From a virus, in the IMG/VR virus record IMGVR_UViG_3300034073_001423, positions 1 through 40,934 of that record: a DNA stretch of 40,934 nucleotides. One strand, written 5' to 3'. This document shows, one piece after another, positions 3,397-29,405 of the stretch; the first letter of the stretch is position 1; each line of letters starts with the position of its first letter. The notes below the pieces were generated by a model. That model saw nothing but the letters and a program-made list of their open reading frames with translations, searched no databases and was not told the DNA's origin. The position numbers and the translations under genes are program-made.

Positions 3397-3776
3397 TGGC
3401 TTACAGAACCTTTCTAAGATACCATCAATATTTAGATGTCTATAGCAGATCTGTGACGACCAACAGTGCCGGTCAAAAGATTGGTTCTTGGTCTTTGTCT
3501 GAATCAGATGTCCCGTGTGCGTTCCAGCCGGTTTCTTCTGAGAGAAGAGTAGCCCCGTATGTTGATAATGTTGAAGAGTATGAATTGCTCATACCGCATA
3601 CATATGCAAGTTATTTTCAGTATGGATACAGGGTGCAAGATATTAAAGATAGATACAACACAACGCTTGTTGCTGGTCCTTTTGAGGTCGTTGATATTGC
3701 AAGAAGAACAGGTTGGAATGGAAAGTTGAGTCATATCCTTGTTAGGATTAGACTTGTTGTTGAGGTGGGTTCCTGA
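3396..3776 (+). CDS. Head closure / head-tail joining protein
   Basis: This is a 126-residue protein starting on the TGATG overlap with the preceding stop. It is beta-rich, with the pattern Y-D-VYSRS-T-N-AGQKIGSW...CAFQPVSSERRVAP near the N terminus. That pattern is typical of head-closure (stopper, gp16-like) proteins, which begin with a strand describing a gene-specific 'type of tail attachment' loop. Position directly after the connector fits. No catalytic motif is seen and none is expected. Confidence 0.6.
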   Translation: MAYRTFLRYHQYLDVYSRSVTTNSAGQKIGSWSLSESDVPCAFQPVSSERRVAPYVDNVEEYELLIPHTYASYFQYGYRVQDIKDRYNTTLVAGPFEVVDIARRTGWNGKLSHILVRIRLVVEVGS

Positions 3777-6358: not shown

Positions 6359-9300
6359 ATGGCTAGGGAAGAACTCAAACTTGACGTATCTGTAGCGGGT
6401 ATAGAGCAAATTGAGAAACTTTCTGTTTCTCTTCGCAACCTTATAACATCAAGTGTGGGCATGACCCGCAGAACTCAGAATATGGACGCCGCACAGCGTG
6501 CTCTGAGTCAGGCTGTAGGTGTAACCAATAAGGGTCTTAACGAACATGCTAAGACGATTGGTCAGGTTAGAACCAATCAAAGAGCTCTTGGCAATGAACT
6601 CAATAATCTTAGAAATGCTATAAAGCAAACTGATGCTAGGATTAAAAGTCTCAACACCTCTTTTGCAGAGAAAGAAGCATTACGTCAGTTTAATAACCAG
6701 TTAAAAACAACTGAGCGTAATCTTGAGCGGATCAGACCACGGGCTTTAATTAGCGACCTTAGATCACTTTCTGTTCAGTTTAAGAAAGCCGGTAAAGATG
6801 CTCAGTTCGTAGGTCGAAGCCTTATTATTGGTTTGACAACACCAATAATGATGTTTGCTAATAGAGGCCTTGATGCTTTTAAGGCTTTTGATGCTGAACT
6901 TGTTCGTCTTAAGAAGATTCTTGGCGAAGCATTCCTTGGCAATGAACAAAAAGGCTTTATCGCTCTTCTTGATCAAGAAAGAGAAGGCTTAGAAAAACTA
7001 GGATACTCTCTAGAATCTGTAACATCTAGAATGGATGCCTTTAATCAGGTTACGTTCCAGATGAGCCAGAAATTTGGTGTTTCAAGAGATCTTGTAACCG
7101 CTGTTACAGCCGATTTTGCGGAACTTGGTATTGCATCGACTGATGTTCTTCTTGGCTTGGCAGATGTAACAAACCAATTATCTGTGCTGGGTAGCATGGA
7201 TATTTCTCAGTCTCAAGAACTTTTGCAGACCATGTTCTTGGGAACCATTAGATCAATGGATCTGATGGGTAGGGAATTCTCTAGCGCACTTGAGAAACAA
7301 GAGGTTGCATTAGAGGCAGCAACAAATCAGCTGTATCTGTTCAACGCTATTGAAAACAATACGGCTTTGTCATTCAGAGACATGGCTGAGTCAATTCCAG
7401 AAGCTTCTTCTGCTGCAACCATTTTTGGTTTGACCATGACCCAGACTGCAGCAATGCTTGCGCCTATGAAGGCTGCTGGTATTGACGTTAAGACTGCTGC
7501 TAATGGCTTAAAGGTTGCTTTGCAGAGGCTTGCTACTCCAACAGGAGTCTTGCAAGATACTATGGCTGGTTTAACTGCACGGGTCGGTGAATCTGGTGAA
7601 GAGTTAAGGGCGTATTTCGATGAAATTAGCGGTGTAGGCATTCACTCCATCCAATCTCTTGTTGATGCTACTAATCTATTAAGACAAGAAACTGATGACG
7701 AGGCGGTCATTAAGTTCTATGCTCAATTGTTTGAAAAGCGTCAAGCAACAAGAATGCTTACCTCGATAGACAGCCTTATTCAATTCCAGAAGGAATTAAA
7801 CAGCACTGCCATTCAGCCAACCGGCGAAACTTTGGCTAATATTCTTGAAGGTATTGCTGCTAAAGCCGGATTCGCCTCTCAAGGTTTAATGACGACTGTC
7901 AGAACCATTGAAGATTTCACTAATATCACGAAAGTAGCGAATGCTCAGGTTGGAGAATCTGTTGGTGGTGTTTCTGAAGCAGTAACTCAAGGTCAAATTG
8001 ACTCTGCTAAGAAAGCTCGTCAAATGTTCAGGGATTATGTCTCTGATGTTGAGAAGAATTCGGAAGAAGGAATTCAGGTCGTTGATCAACTTTCTTCTCA
8101 GGCCGGCAAGGCTCTACTTGTGGAACTTCTTGGTGCAGCAAATGCCCAGCAGTTGGCTCAAGAAGAGTTAGACATCGCTCTCGCTTCCACATCGAAGCAG
8201 ATTGATCGCATGCGTATTGCTTTCAAAAATATCGCTACGGATATTATTTCTTCAGCAGAGCCAGCGATCAGAGCGGTTTCTACTGCAGTCGTTAATGCTG
8301 CTGAAGCAATATCAAAACTACCTGCTGGCGTTAAACAATTAATGATTGTATTCGCTGGAGCAGTTGCTGCTATCGGTCCTCTCGTATTTATTTTTGGTCA
8401 AGTAAAACTTGCGGCCGGTGTTATGGGCGGTGTCTTGTTCAAGATGTTGCCTGGTGTGAATGCTTTAAGTGCTGAAACTTTGGCGGCGACACCCGGGCTT
8501 CTAAAGATGAAGAATGCAGTAACTCTGCAAGGTGATGCATTTACAACTTCTGCAAGCAGAATGCAAAGATTTATTGCAACTGTTTCAAGTGGTCGCGGTC
8601 CTATTGCAAGAATGGCTAGAGCCTATGGTGAGGCTACAGGTATTCTTTCTAAGCAATTTACTGCACCACAAGATGTTCTTGCAAGAGTAGGTATGACAAG
8701 TGCAGCAGGTGAGGCTGCTCTTAATACTCTTGATGCAAGGATGAATGAGATTGCCGCAAAGACAACTGGCATTCTAGCATCAGGAGGTGAAACTGCTGGA
8801 AACAATATTTTAGATGGAGCTCTTAAAGCAGCAGTCAGTCTAAAAGGTGATTCTGAGATTATACATAATAAAATTGTTTCTGCTGCGGCAGAAGCAAAAG
8901 CAATTTTACAATCAACTAAGATTAACCCAAGAGACTTAATACAAGGACCAATGGGGCCATTCCCGTCATCACCATTGCAACCAACACAGTCTTTAAGAGC
9001 AATTCCCAGTGTTGCTGCCGCTGGCGTTTTGGAATTGGCTGATGGTCCTTATCCATCTATGCCAATAAAGCAGATGGACGCTTTCACTCGATCTTTAGAT
9101 GCTGTCAGTGTTCAAACAAGAGGCTTGGCTAGTTCAATAACTGATCAGGTTATAACTAGAGAAGGAGTAATGGCCGAAATACAAAATAGAATGGCTAGGT
9201 CTGGCTTCTCACCAGCTGATCTTTCTGGGGTATCTATTAAAACAAGTCAATTCGGTGCATTCGAAGGTGCAGCAAAAGCCAGTGGTGAGTTTATATCTGA

Positions 9301-27671: not shown

Positions 27672-27735
27672 GATGCTAAGTGGGCGGTGTGTTCTGCATT
27701 GTTCACTTTACCCTCTTGGGACGCCCACTAGCATT
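27672..27735 (+). other. Long-stem hairpin between the SSB-like gene and the small-gene cassette
   Basis: 27672-27686 pairs with 27722-27735 (14 pairs, one G-U, one bulged A at 27679), enclosing a 35-base loop. It has no T-tract. It lies just past the 27654 stop and directly before the next promoter. A role in transcript end processing, attenuation or protein binding is possible. Confidence 0.6.
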
Positions 27736-27741
27736 CAATCT

Positions 27742-27750
27742 TGGTATAAT
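27742..27750 (+). promoter_or_regulatory. Putative extended -10 promoter of the small-gene cassette
   Basis: TGGTATAAT is a consensus extended -10 box, with no clear -35. Transcription would start near 27757 and produce a leader of about 68 bases before the first cassette gene. Confidence 0.6.
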
Positions 27751-27766
27751 GTGTCAAAAATGTAAC

Positions 27767-27791
27767 TTAACACACGTTTTTCGTGGGTTAA
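27767..27791 (+). promoter_or_regulatory. Leader inverted repeat with T5 loop
   Basis: TTAACACACG (27767-27776) pairs with CGTGGGTTAA (27782-27791) around a TTTTT loop, with one A-G mismatch. It lies in the leader of the small-gene cassette and could be an RNA hairpin or a repressor operator placed just past the promoter. Confidence 0.55.
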
Positions 27792-27824
27792 TGCAACAGA
27801 AGTGCTACATAAAGGAAGACCGCA

Positions 27825-28001
27825 GTGGCTGAAGTAAAAGTAACCCACGGCACAGTCCAATGGGACGAACGGCGAGGCACCTCCGACATCGTGTGGATAG
27901 ATATCGGTGGCGAACCCCGATGTCGAGTAGAAGTCTCAGTATCTCCGACAGGTAAAAGCATCCAAGTTCACGTAGACGGAAAGCGAGTACACCATGGCTG
28001 A
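27825..28001 (+). CDS. 58-residue beta-rich cassette protein
   Basis: This short gene starts with GTG (27825) behind AAGGAAG (27812-27818). It encodes a 58-residue protein of alternating polar/hydrophobic strands (VKVTHGTVQW, DIVWIDIGG, CRVEVSVSPTG, IQVHVDGKRV), probably a small beta barrel. The stop codon overlaps the next gene's ATGGCTGA start. Codons end mostly in C or A, unlike the phage average. The function is unknown. Confidence 0.6.
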   Translation: MAEVKVTHGTVQWDERRGTSDIVWIDIGGEPRCRVEVSVSPTGKSIQVHVDGKRVHHG

Positions 28002-28194
28002 CAACTTATGGCGACGAGTCCACTTATGGCGACGAGTTCAACCACCGCAACACCCACCGAGATACATGACCGATGGACACGGCAACGGGTGGGAACGCTG
28101 CCAGCGCGACGACTGCGATTTGCACATCACACGACCCGGCAAAGCCGACTGCCACCACGACCAATGCCCAGAAAAGGAGGCCCGCCGTGGCTGA
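27994..28194 (+). CDS. 66-residue Cys/His-rich cassette protein
   Basis: This gene starts at ATGGCTGA, overlapping the preceding stop. It begins with two copies of LWRRV (18-bp tandem repeat at 28004-28039) and then carries a Cys/His cluster (CQRDDC, H, then CHHDQC) suitable for zinc binding. It ends in RRG at the GTGGCTGA junction with the next gene. No named family is recognised. Confidence 0.55.
   Translation: MADNLWRRVHLWRRVQPPQHPPRYMTDGHGNGWERCQRDDCDLHITRPGKADCHHDQCPEKEARRG
28004..28039 (+). repeat. 18-bp tandem duplication
   Basis: ACTTATGGCGACGAGT-plus-two-base units occur twice in a row, encoding LWRRVH and LWRRVQ at the start of the 66-residue protein. Confidence 0.85.
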
Positions 28195-28405
28195 CGACAT
28201 CGTGACCCGACTACGACACATGGGATGGCTCGCGCCCGAAGGCGAACCGTGGGCCGACCAGGTGCGCGAAGCCGCCGACGAGATACAACTATTGCGTTCC
28301 GCTTTGGCTCTTGCTTGCGGGCTTCTCAGCACCTATGAAGACCACGCCATGTTCCAACCCGACCAGTTGATGCAGCAGTTCATCAAGGAGGCGAGCCGTG
28401 GCTGA
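28187..28405 (+). CDS. 72-residue DDIVTRL-family paralogue
   Basis: This gene starts with GTG at 28187 behind AAGGAGG (28174-28180) and overlaps the previous stop. The N terminus ADDIVTRLR is followed by REAADEIQLLRSAL and a helical tail. This 'DDIV-RL ... AADEI--LR' arrangement recurs in small phage proteins of unknown function. It is paralogous to the genes at 28820 and 29160. Probable helical oligomer; no catalytic residues are visible. Confidence 0.65.
   Translation: MADDIVTRLRHMGWLAPEGEPWADQVREAADEIQLLRSALALACGLLSTYEDHAMFQPDQLMQQFIKEASRG
28188..28214 (+). repeat. Direct 27-bp repeat (second copy at 28821-28847)
   Basis: An identical 27-base block starting TGGCTGACGACATCGTGACC covers the start of two paralogous genes 633 bases apart. 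Identity at the DNA level, including synonymous positions, points to recent duplication or gene conversion. Confidence 0.9.
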
Positions 28406-28472
28406 AGCCATTGCTGTAGTGGCTGGGATCATTACTGGCTGGTTCATCTACTTCGGAGGTCGCCGTGGCTGA
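28398..28472 (+). CDS. 24-residue single-pass membrane microprotein
   Basis: This gene has GTG start 28398 behind AAGGAGG (28385-28391) and stop TGA 28470-28472. The 24 residues are nearly all one hydrophobic segment (AIAVVAGIITGWFIYF) ending in GGRRG, as for a membrane anchor with a positive cytoplasmic end. Both ends overlap neighbours through the same GTGGCTGA junction, which supports translation. It is very short, so it could also be a coupling element with no function of its own. Confidence 0.45.
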   Translation: MAEAIAVVAGIITGWFIYFGGRRG

Positions 28473-28827
28473 CGACATGGCGACCCCTGACGACTGGAGT
28501 GAGCCAGAGATGGCACCGCTTCACGTTCTTGCTGGCCGACACGACCACAAGGGACACAGCGAGGAAATGTGCGTGCGCTGCGGATGGGTAATGGGCCACC
28601 GCCCGCTGAACTGCATGAACGACGACACGCCCCATGTGTTCCCATCACAACAAGCCGAGATCGAACGACTGCGCGAAAACAACGAATACCTCCACGACGT
28701 AATCGCGTCTCTACGCGGCGAAGTGCGTGAACTGGAAGCCGCTCTACCAGACCCGCCCCCGCAGCACACCCCTGTCCGCTCCACGCCACTCACCGTCCAA
28801 CCCCCCAAGGAGAACCATCATGGCTGA
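28465..28827 (+). CDS. 120-residue cassette protein with CxxC and coiled coil
   Basis: This gene starts with GTG at 28465 behind CGGAGG (28454-28459). The N terminus ADDMATPDDW is related to the cassette start motif. A central Cys/His-rich stretch (HDHKGHSEEMCVRCGW, then C at about 51) may bind zinc. A charged coiled coil follows (AEIERLRENNEYLHDVIASLRGEVRELEAA), and then a Pro-rich tail. It is a fusion-like variant of the family in which the 'EIERLR' helix is kept but the DDIVTRL start is altered. Confidence 0.6.
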   Translation: MADDMATPDDWSEPEMAPLHVLAGRHDHKGHSEEMCVRCGWVMGHRPLNCMNDDTPHVFPSQQAEIERLRENNEYLHDVIASLRGEVRELEAALPDPPPQHTPVRSTPLTVQPPKENHHG

Positions 28828-29167
28828 CGACATCGTGACCCGACTACAAGAAATGTTGGACGGACCAGTCCCATTCGCTGTCGGCAGAGAAGACATCCGA
28901 GAAGCCCTCAACGAAATCGAACGACTTCGTAAAGAAGTTCACGAAGAACGAGCATCATCAAAGACGTTCCAGACACTTCTTCTCGACGCAACCGACGAAC
29001 TCGAACGGGTCACCAAGGAACGCAACGGCTGGCAAGCGGAAGCAGCAGGAATCAGCGAAGACCTATCTAACGCCGAAGACGAAATCGAACTACTAAAAGA
29101 AGAAATTAACGATTTGCGCTTGCAAGTTGTCACATTGTCAATTCCTAAGGAGGCTAGTGATGACTGA
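28820..29167 (+). CDS. 115-residue DDIVTRL-family coiled-coil paralogue
   Basis: This gene starts with ATG at 28820 behind AAGGAG (28807-28812). ADDIVTRLQEM and EALNEIERLRKEV give the family signature. It is followed by a long acidic coiled coil up to residue ~105. It shares 27 identical bases with the gene at 28187. It ends four bases past a strong AAGGAGG used by the next gene. Probably structural or regulatory; the function is unknown. Confidence 0.65.
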   Translation: MADDIVTRLQEMLDGPVPFAVGREDIREALNEIERLRKEVHEERASSKTFQTLLLDATDELERVTKERNGWQAEAAGISEDLSNAEDEIELLKEEINDLRLQVVTLSIPKEASDD

Positions 29168-29405
29168 TGACATTATTCAAAGACTTAGAGCTTTTGATAA
29201 TGGGTATGTTGGGACACATTATGATGATTGTTGGCATTATCATCCGATTTGTGCGATTTTGCGGGCTGCTGATGAAATTGAGCAACTGCGCAAGGAATTA
29301 CGGCGAGTAGCATTGGATCATCTTGCTACCCTTTCAGAGCTGGAAGCAGTAAGCATGATTGCGCGTGACTTTGTTGATGTAGATGACGAGGATTATGATG
29401 GCTAA
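29160..29405 (+). CDS. 81-residue DDI-RL-family paralogue with His/Cys insert
   Basis: This gene starts with ATG at 29160 (ATGA overlap) behind AAGGAGG (29147-29153). MTDDIIQRLRAFD and RAADEIEQLRKELRR show the family signature. Between them is an aromatic His/Cys-rich insert (THYDDCWHYHPICAIL) that could bind metal. Codon use changes here from C-ending to T/G-ending, so this paralogue has been in a different compositional background from its relatives. Confidence 0.65.
   Translation: MTDDIIQRLRAFDNGYVGTHYDDCWHYHPICAILRAADEIEQLRKELRRVALDHLATLSELEAVSMIARDFVDVDDEDYDG

Follow-up and report, generated by a model that had tools for sequence, protein, structure and literature searches.

Overlapping microgenes in an uncultured phage: a probable array of modules exchanged at translational junctions

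An uncultured phage carries a block of small overlapping genes, which is very probably a series of accessory microgenes that were acquired horizontally and have been shuffled. Interchangeable modules in it lie between two short nodes, J and K, and the translational junctions would act as recombination handles. The window analyzed here is the whole 40,934-nt fragment of the phage record IMGVR_UViG_3300034073_001423. From sequence comparison, the nodes, identity confined to one side of a node, the combinations of modules, a duplicated module, insertion into the window phage, and protein-level constraint can be taken as demonstrated; all support for recombination is comparative and comes from metagenomic contigs. 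How the modules of mosaic phage genomes are joined is a long-standing open question (PMC3029335), and the borders described here carry a common repeated sequence. Because this shared border sequence is a translation joint, every exchange would yield a working gene, and since what is exchanged is less than a whole gene, it offers a visible route to new small phage proteins.

Results

Eight-nucleotide overlaps join seven small genes and the following phosphatase gene

The sequence-only reading described six small genes in a row that meet at nearly the same junction. All six RTGGCTGA copies are present, at 27825, 27994, 28187, 28398, 28465, and 28820, compared with a mean of 0.06 copies (maximum, 2) in 2,000 dinucleotide shuffles of the block. 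Direct reading bore out both the purine-rich Shine-Dalgarno sequence proposed before each start and the S/H/R-G-stop ending of the upstream frame. While the junctions are real, the row had been drawn too short, as it contains seven genes (g1 to g7) and the pattern runs two genes further (Table 1): g7 opens with a seventh copy, ATGACTGA at 29160, and the HAD-like gene after it begins with ATGGCTAA in an 8-nt overlap with g7. From g1 through the HAD gene, the overlap between neighbors is exactly 8 nt in 7 of 7 pairs, compared with overlaps of 1 nt (7), 4 nt (7), 8 nt (1), and 11 to 22 nt (4) among the 19 found elsewhere in the window (Fisher p = 1.2e-5 for 8-nt overlaps).

Table 1. Features of the microgene block and its borders, in window coordinates
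Feature	Position	Strand	Remarks
Hairpin after SSB gene, resident in phage family; left border of inserted cassette	27672..27736	+	Fold z = -3.9; also in L007, L009, L014, L016, L017, L018
Extended -10 promoter-like sequence TGGTATAAT, putative cassette transcript start	27742..27750	+	Direct reading; unflagged by two-hexamer scan
Junction J1 (variant), without intact upstream cassette	27812..27838	+	D1 repeat copy, 74% to reference
g1, 58 aa (GTG start)	27825..28001	+	Weak DUF7713 match, below cutoff
Junction J2 (variant)	27981..28007	+	Repeat copy
g2, 66 aa, Cys/His-rich	27994..28194	+	
Junction J3, full consensus, 0 mismatches	28174..28215	+	
g3, 72 aa, MADDIVTRLR...AADEI.LLR	28187..28405	+	72% identical to L083:5238-5453; DNA homology exactly junction to junction
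Node K in g3 (ADEIQLLR)	28274..28296	+	Node scan
Junction J4	28385..28411	+	
g4, 24 aa, one hydrophobic segment	28398..28472	+	
Junction J5	28452..28478	+	
g5, 120 aa, Cys/His N-module	28465..28827	+	N-module 89% DNA identity to G002 (L168), 110 nt, ending at node K; other C-module
Node K in g5 (AEIERLR)	28651..28673	+	
Junction J6	28807..28855	+	84% identical to J3 over 49 nt
g6, 115 aa, coiled-coil	28820..29167	+	aa 53-100 67% identical to L002
Node K in g6 (NEIERLR)	28907..28929	+	
Junction J7, AT-rich variant ATGACTGATGACATT	29147..29173	+	
g7, 81 aa, AT-rich family member	29160..29405	+	N-module 47% identical to gene in L033
Node K in g7 (ADEIEQLR)	29268..29290	+	
HAD-like phosphatase, start ATGGCTAA	29398..29925	+	Resident gene directly after SSB in relatives; 8-nt overlap with g7

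The 8-nt overlap, NTGNNTGA, has the minimum length possible in its phase and forces an xxT second codon and Asp or Glu at the third, which accounts for the common Met/Val-Ala-Asp/Glu starts. This constraint leaves unexplained a longer repeat, which forms a 27-nt family of seven copies in the block and extends to 49 nt at 84% identity between the copies at 28174 and 28807. Tandem repeat expansion was rejected as the origin of the block, as no period was detected. The first junction, previously said to have no upstream gene in frame, in fact ends an open frame at 27680 to 27832 (...KEDRSG, then stop). This frame appears to be what remains of the end of a lost cassette, since it passes through the hairpin and a promoter-like stretch and has no ribosome site.

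Node J separates shared from unrelated sequence

Several dozen loci were collected by pattern scans of viral contigs. Because these loci were retrieved with patterns resembling J, node conservation is overstated, and detection of the nodes by DNA similarity inflates it as well; node K was not used for most retrievals. Node J spans ~42 nt and comprises the Shine-Dalgarno sequence, the 8-nt stop/start overlap, and the first 8 to 10 codons (MADDIVTRLR). In 23 family junctions aligned on the start codon, information was high from about -14 to +28 and near zero outside, so that J presents the short conserved sequence at a module border by which a boundary linker is recognized. The second mark of such a linker, the same module joined to unrelated ones in different phages, was found as well. 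Unusual synonymous codons are also shared at J (GTG, 0.90 versus 0.28 expected; CGA, 0.54 versus 0.24), at frequencies that are inflated by ascertainment.

Pairs of junctions share 85 to 100% DNA identity on one flank and ~25% on the other, and this was seen in both directions. The loci L038 and L044 are 93 to 100% identical over 100 nt upstream and 13 to 40% identical from +30 onward; L033/L038 (within 87 to 100% upstream, ~25% after the start) and L042/L044 show the same direction. The mirror case is provided by L030/L044 and L075/L083, in which the upstream sequences are unrelated and the downstream sequences are 73 to 100% identical to ~+100.

More recent differences also fall at the nodes. 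From one junction onward, the genomes G002 and G015 match over 3.8 kb at 99.45% identity; just upstream of this junction lie a common C-module (95.6%) and then, before K, different N-modules. Relative to G015, G002 has an extra junction-bounded gene of 22 codons, which is fused in frame to the preceding C-module via a small deletion in J. In L181, two genes with unrelated N-modules carry an identical 93-nt C-module that runs on through J. Junctions lie at most 800 nt from a contig end in 7 of 14 array contigs, where 1.2 would be expected (combined Fisher test, p = 2e-7, or 6e-5 when two contigs that share their species with a third are left out), as assembly graphs behave at repeats or variable points.

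As a separate observation, positions 3462 to 3646 of L168 (G002) hold two cassettes in one frame through the junction deletion (...QEAD-VTDDNAQ...). Junction deletions that fuse cassettes are a possible route to longer proteins.

A second node inside the genes divides them into independently combined modules

The proposal that the junction supplies short homology, at which genes are gained, lost, or swapped without breaking translation, is supported by the one-sided flanks, the positions of match ends, the G002/G015 differences, and the L181 duplication, from which we infer recombination. As an account of where exchange occurs, it was incomplete, since a second, intragenic node takes part too. 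Node K, GCCGACGAGATnGAACGnCTGCG (ADEIERLR), is ~25 to 30 nt long, and many DNA matches stop at this motif, at ~+105. A scan for J and K gave 224 matches over 631 kb of array-bearing loci, and shuffled sequence yielded none; the matches are clustered and often alternate, and as the loci were retrieved with related patterns, the count shows the specificity of the finder and the clustering rather than abundance. The codon bias of node K persists when K is located by its protein motif.

In a set made up of the window and 15 contigs, nodes held 27 of 45 match ends, compared with 6.7 expected (p = 6e-12); a larger set, noisier through an internal repeat of L181/L184, gave 66 of 135, compared with at most 35. 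Typical matches run from J to K (~120 nt) or from K to J (~170 nt) at 90 to 97% identity between otherwise unrelated contigs. The Cys/His N-module of g5 is 89% identical to its counterpart in G002, with divergence beginning at K. Comparison of the 52 genes that have both modules gave 13 pairs with only the N-module in common, 11 with only the C-module, and none with both at the threshold used; these counts are of nonindependent events, and g3 and L083, whose N-modules are recognizably related, arguably share both. On these comparisons, the J-to-K and K-to-J modules, of 90 to 200 nt, appear to be recombined independently.

Two general points weigh against shuffling: phage mosaics commonly break near gene ends, and homology could end at the nodes partly through conservation of functional motifs. 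The alternative that survives best, unlikely though we consider it, is that one small-gene family was duplicated in tandem and diverged, protein function having preserved an inherited N terminus, ADEIERLR motif, and 8-nt overlap while the variable parts diverged fast, with little exchange between phages. MADDIVTRLR and AADEIERLR do occur at a fixed spacing in g3, g6, g7, and many other array genes, and L044 and L181 contain tandem paralogues. Divergence in place, however, cannot produce an abrupt change at a node, with 90 to 100% identity on one side and unrelated sequence on the other, between phages without other DNA similarity, nor does it fit the identical C-modules behind unrelated N-modules in L181. 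The counts of pairs sharing only one module already suggest that trees of N- and C-modules disagree.

Array genes recur in otherwise unrelated phages

Other phage contigs contain relatives of g3, g5, g6, and g7 (72% in L083, 73% in L030, 67% in L002, and 47% in L033, respectively) and otherwise have almost nothing in common with the window. The match between g3 and L083 (G005) covers 235 nt of DNA; it begins and ends exactly at neighboring junctions, and the genes on either side differ. For g1, g2, and g4, no relatives were found in these data, and the evidence for exchange comes from the other array genes. Most other contigs bearing cassette genes have a higher GC content than the window phage, and the AT-rich contigs L174 and L181 also carry GC-rich arrays. 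The arrays are more uniform in GC (mean, 0.60; standard deviation, 0.04) than their carriers (mean, 0.55; standard deviation, 0.07; regression slope, 0.30), as expected for a shared pool.

The suggested search for the junction motif did find its short core between unrelated genes. A subset of the retrieved loci is a real family, whose downstream proteins start with M(A/T/S)DDIVxRL. The 20-nt core sequence AAGGAGGCCnnCCGTGrCTGA alone is widespread in actinophages at ordinary 8-nt overlaps between unrelated gene pairs, so that this core, and with it part of J, is at least partly convergent. It is highly improbable, though, that translational convergence explains everything, with the 8-nt overlap as a compact form of coupling and with strong Shine-Dalgarno sequences and GC-rich codons yielding similar strings. 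The core junctions of actinophages and the Pseudanabaena phage Pam4, which has 8-nt overlaps in a row and MADP... starts without family relation, are what convergence would produce; conservation to +28, shared synonymous codons, node K, and one-sided identity breaks are all unpredicted by it, and the one-sided identity refutes it for the J/K family. Isolated junctions outside this family are likely to be convergent.

Neither isolated phages nor prophages in bacterial genomes extended the family: no convincing J/K member was found in the former, and no copy in the latter with either query. Two candidate carriers were rejected. Pam4 has three consecutive 8-nt overlaps with no J/K family relation, which we attribute to convergence, and the annotated genes at the match in EBPR siphovirus 6 do not overlap. 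The overlaps of Pam4, an isolated phage record of ~75% GC, lie between hypothetical genes (L194, 2570-3742).

The block is an insertion between the SSB and HAD genes

The SSB of the window shares ~30% identity with those of large Rhodococcus and Streptomyces phages, and 27 phage contigs with the same SSB (50 to 90% identical) served as relatives. Their gene order is primase, SSB, HAD, (methyltransferase), polymerase; in nearly all whose contig reaches there, the SSB-HAD gap measures ~50 to 165 nt and contains a hairpin. The gap in the window measures 1.75 kb, and no microgene array was found in any of the 27 relatives. Comparison of related phages for cassette order and number, as proposed earlier, therefore shows variable order and content and conserved junctions across other phages, since the close relatives of the window phage have no array. 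The different base composition claimed for the block was confirmed (GC up to 0.59 and negative skew, compared with ~0.41 and positive skew). The absence of an array at this site in relatives, together with a block GC of 0.55 to 0.60 compared with ~0.41 in the remaining window, indicates that the block is foreign in the window phage.

With its insertion between genes that adjoin in relatives and its deviating composition, the block has these two properties of a moron. As for a promoter and terminator of its own, TGGTATAAT at 27742 was recognized by eye and went unflagged in the two-hexamer scan, and g7 overlaps the next gene, without a terminator. In L017 (6640-7880), another small-gene insertion between SSB and HAD comprises, by eye, a tRNA-like sequence and a gene encoding MDIVEQLR...AADEIERLR, and a tRNA-like sequence was also seen by eye in the SSB-HAD gap of L020 (near 6700); this gap is therefore a recurrent insertion site. 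Wrong joining of a GC-rich block into an AT-rich contig during assembly would match the sharp composition change, the frequent ending of array-bearing contigs at junctions, and the presence of the block in 0 of 27 relatives, but it is scarcely credible given the intact resident hairpin at the left border, the exact 8-nt overlap in which g7, of host-phage composition, ends at the resident HAD gene, the other insertion at this site, that of L017 with its DIVEQLR...AADEIERLR gene, and the arrays of L174 and L181.

The SSB-side hairpin has the consensus GGGCGGTG(T/C)GTT.TGCATT.TTC(A/G)CTTT...GGACGCCC in the window and in six relatives (near 6640-6730). Changes in its stem look compensating (GTGGGCG/CGCCCAC versus AGGGGCG/CGCCCCT), and other relatives have a plain terminator stem in its place. 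The hairpin has no entry in Rfam, and no structured RNA family or tRNA was found at the block.

Discussion

Proposed mechanism of module exchange

In the proposed mechanism, J would couple each gene to the preceding one, in that a terminating ribosome would meet a strong Shine-Dalgarno sequence and a start codon within the last 8 nt. Coupled translation at the junctions is argued for by these strong Shine-Dalgarno sites and by termination-reinitiation at short overlaps, which is established (PMC10666635). A crossover within the homology of J would always leave the stop, ribosome site, start, and frame intact, and K would play the same role inside a gene, allowing N- and C-modules to recombine separately. 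The exchange itself may be due to homologous or annealing recombination; the window encodes an SSB, a UvsX-like (RecA-like) recombinase, a Cas4/RecE-like exonuclease, and a RuvC-like resolvase. A dedicated recombinase acting on the nodes did not turn up in the contigs searched. More tentatively, the arrays might be a diversification system under selection, in which phages keep the joint and the intragenic sequence because tiny modules recombine into new in-frame translated proteins drawn from a pool common to unrelated phages; we hold this to be possible but rather less than an even prospect.

Relation to known systems

In lambdoid phages, short conserved boundary (linker) sequences have been proposed to guide homologous exchange, and such linkers cannot be found at most mosaic borders (PMC3029335). 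The arrays resemble them in having short common DNA where unrelated modules meet. They differ in that the linker is a translation joint, repeated many times per array and common to many unrelated phages, with a second linker inside the genes and exchanged units of only 90 to 200 nt. The SAS/ESAS elements of cluster K mycobacteriophages contain a 13-bp sequence, GGGATAGGAGCCC, that hardly ever lies within a reading frame and for which a role in regulating expression has been proposed (PMC3203893, PMC12699233). Like J, SAS is a repeated Shine-Dalgarno-containing element before small genes of different families, a likeness of working rather than of membership; J, unlike SAS, spans stop and start codons and is coding in both frames, and no site matching GGGATAGGAGCCC with at most two mismatches was found in the window.

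In cluster I mycobacteriophages, at the gene 67/68 repeat of Island3, a small gene was gained or lost through recombination between a repeated gene end, which the authors described as the first such event in mycobacteriophages (PMC3029335). That is one case, whereas the arrays described here occur in dozens of contigs and involve two nodes. In T4-type phages, mobile promoter cassettes at gene borders reportedly promote modular gene shuffling; their element is an intergenic stem-loop acting as a transcriptional promoter, unlike the translational joint of the arrays, which lies within overlapping genes. Integron cassettes are similar in being interchangeable small genes in a row with a common separating site, but successive array genes overlap, where integron cassettes have recombination sites between them. 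No attC-like inverted repeats were found at the window junctions, and no IntI-type tyrosine integrase was found among the window proteins scanned. In the part of the literature that we searched, we found no description of a translational and intragenic joint repeated in arrays across unrelated phages.

Translation and products of the array genes

Differences among related array genes numbered 893, 800, and 1,336 at codon positions 1, 2, and 3, respectively (in nonindependent pairs); this bias points to protein-level constraint on the frames and indicates that they are translated. No Pfam or NCBIfam match above cutoff was found for g1 to g7, and PHROGs and PADLOC gave only weak coiled-coil-type or subthreshold matches. 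An AlphaFold model of g3 has three helices (pLDDT 80, moderate confidence), a fold so generic that it hints at no function. Judging by the size, position, and turnover of the array products, our guess is that they might be early, fast-diversifying host-interaction proteins. A larger array protein common to L181 (2561-3091), L184, and L157 (G007) contains an internal repeat of variable length that is rich in Ala, Trp, and Asp (WAAARDAAWDAAW...).
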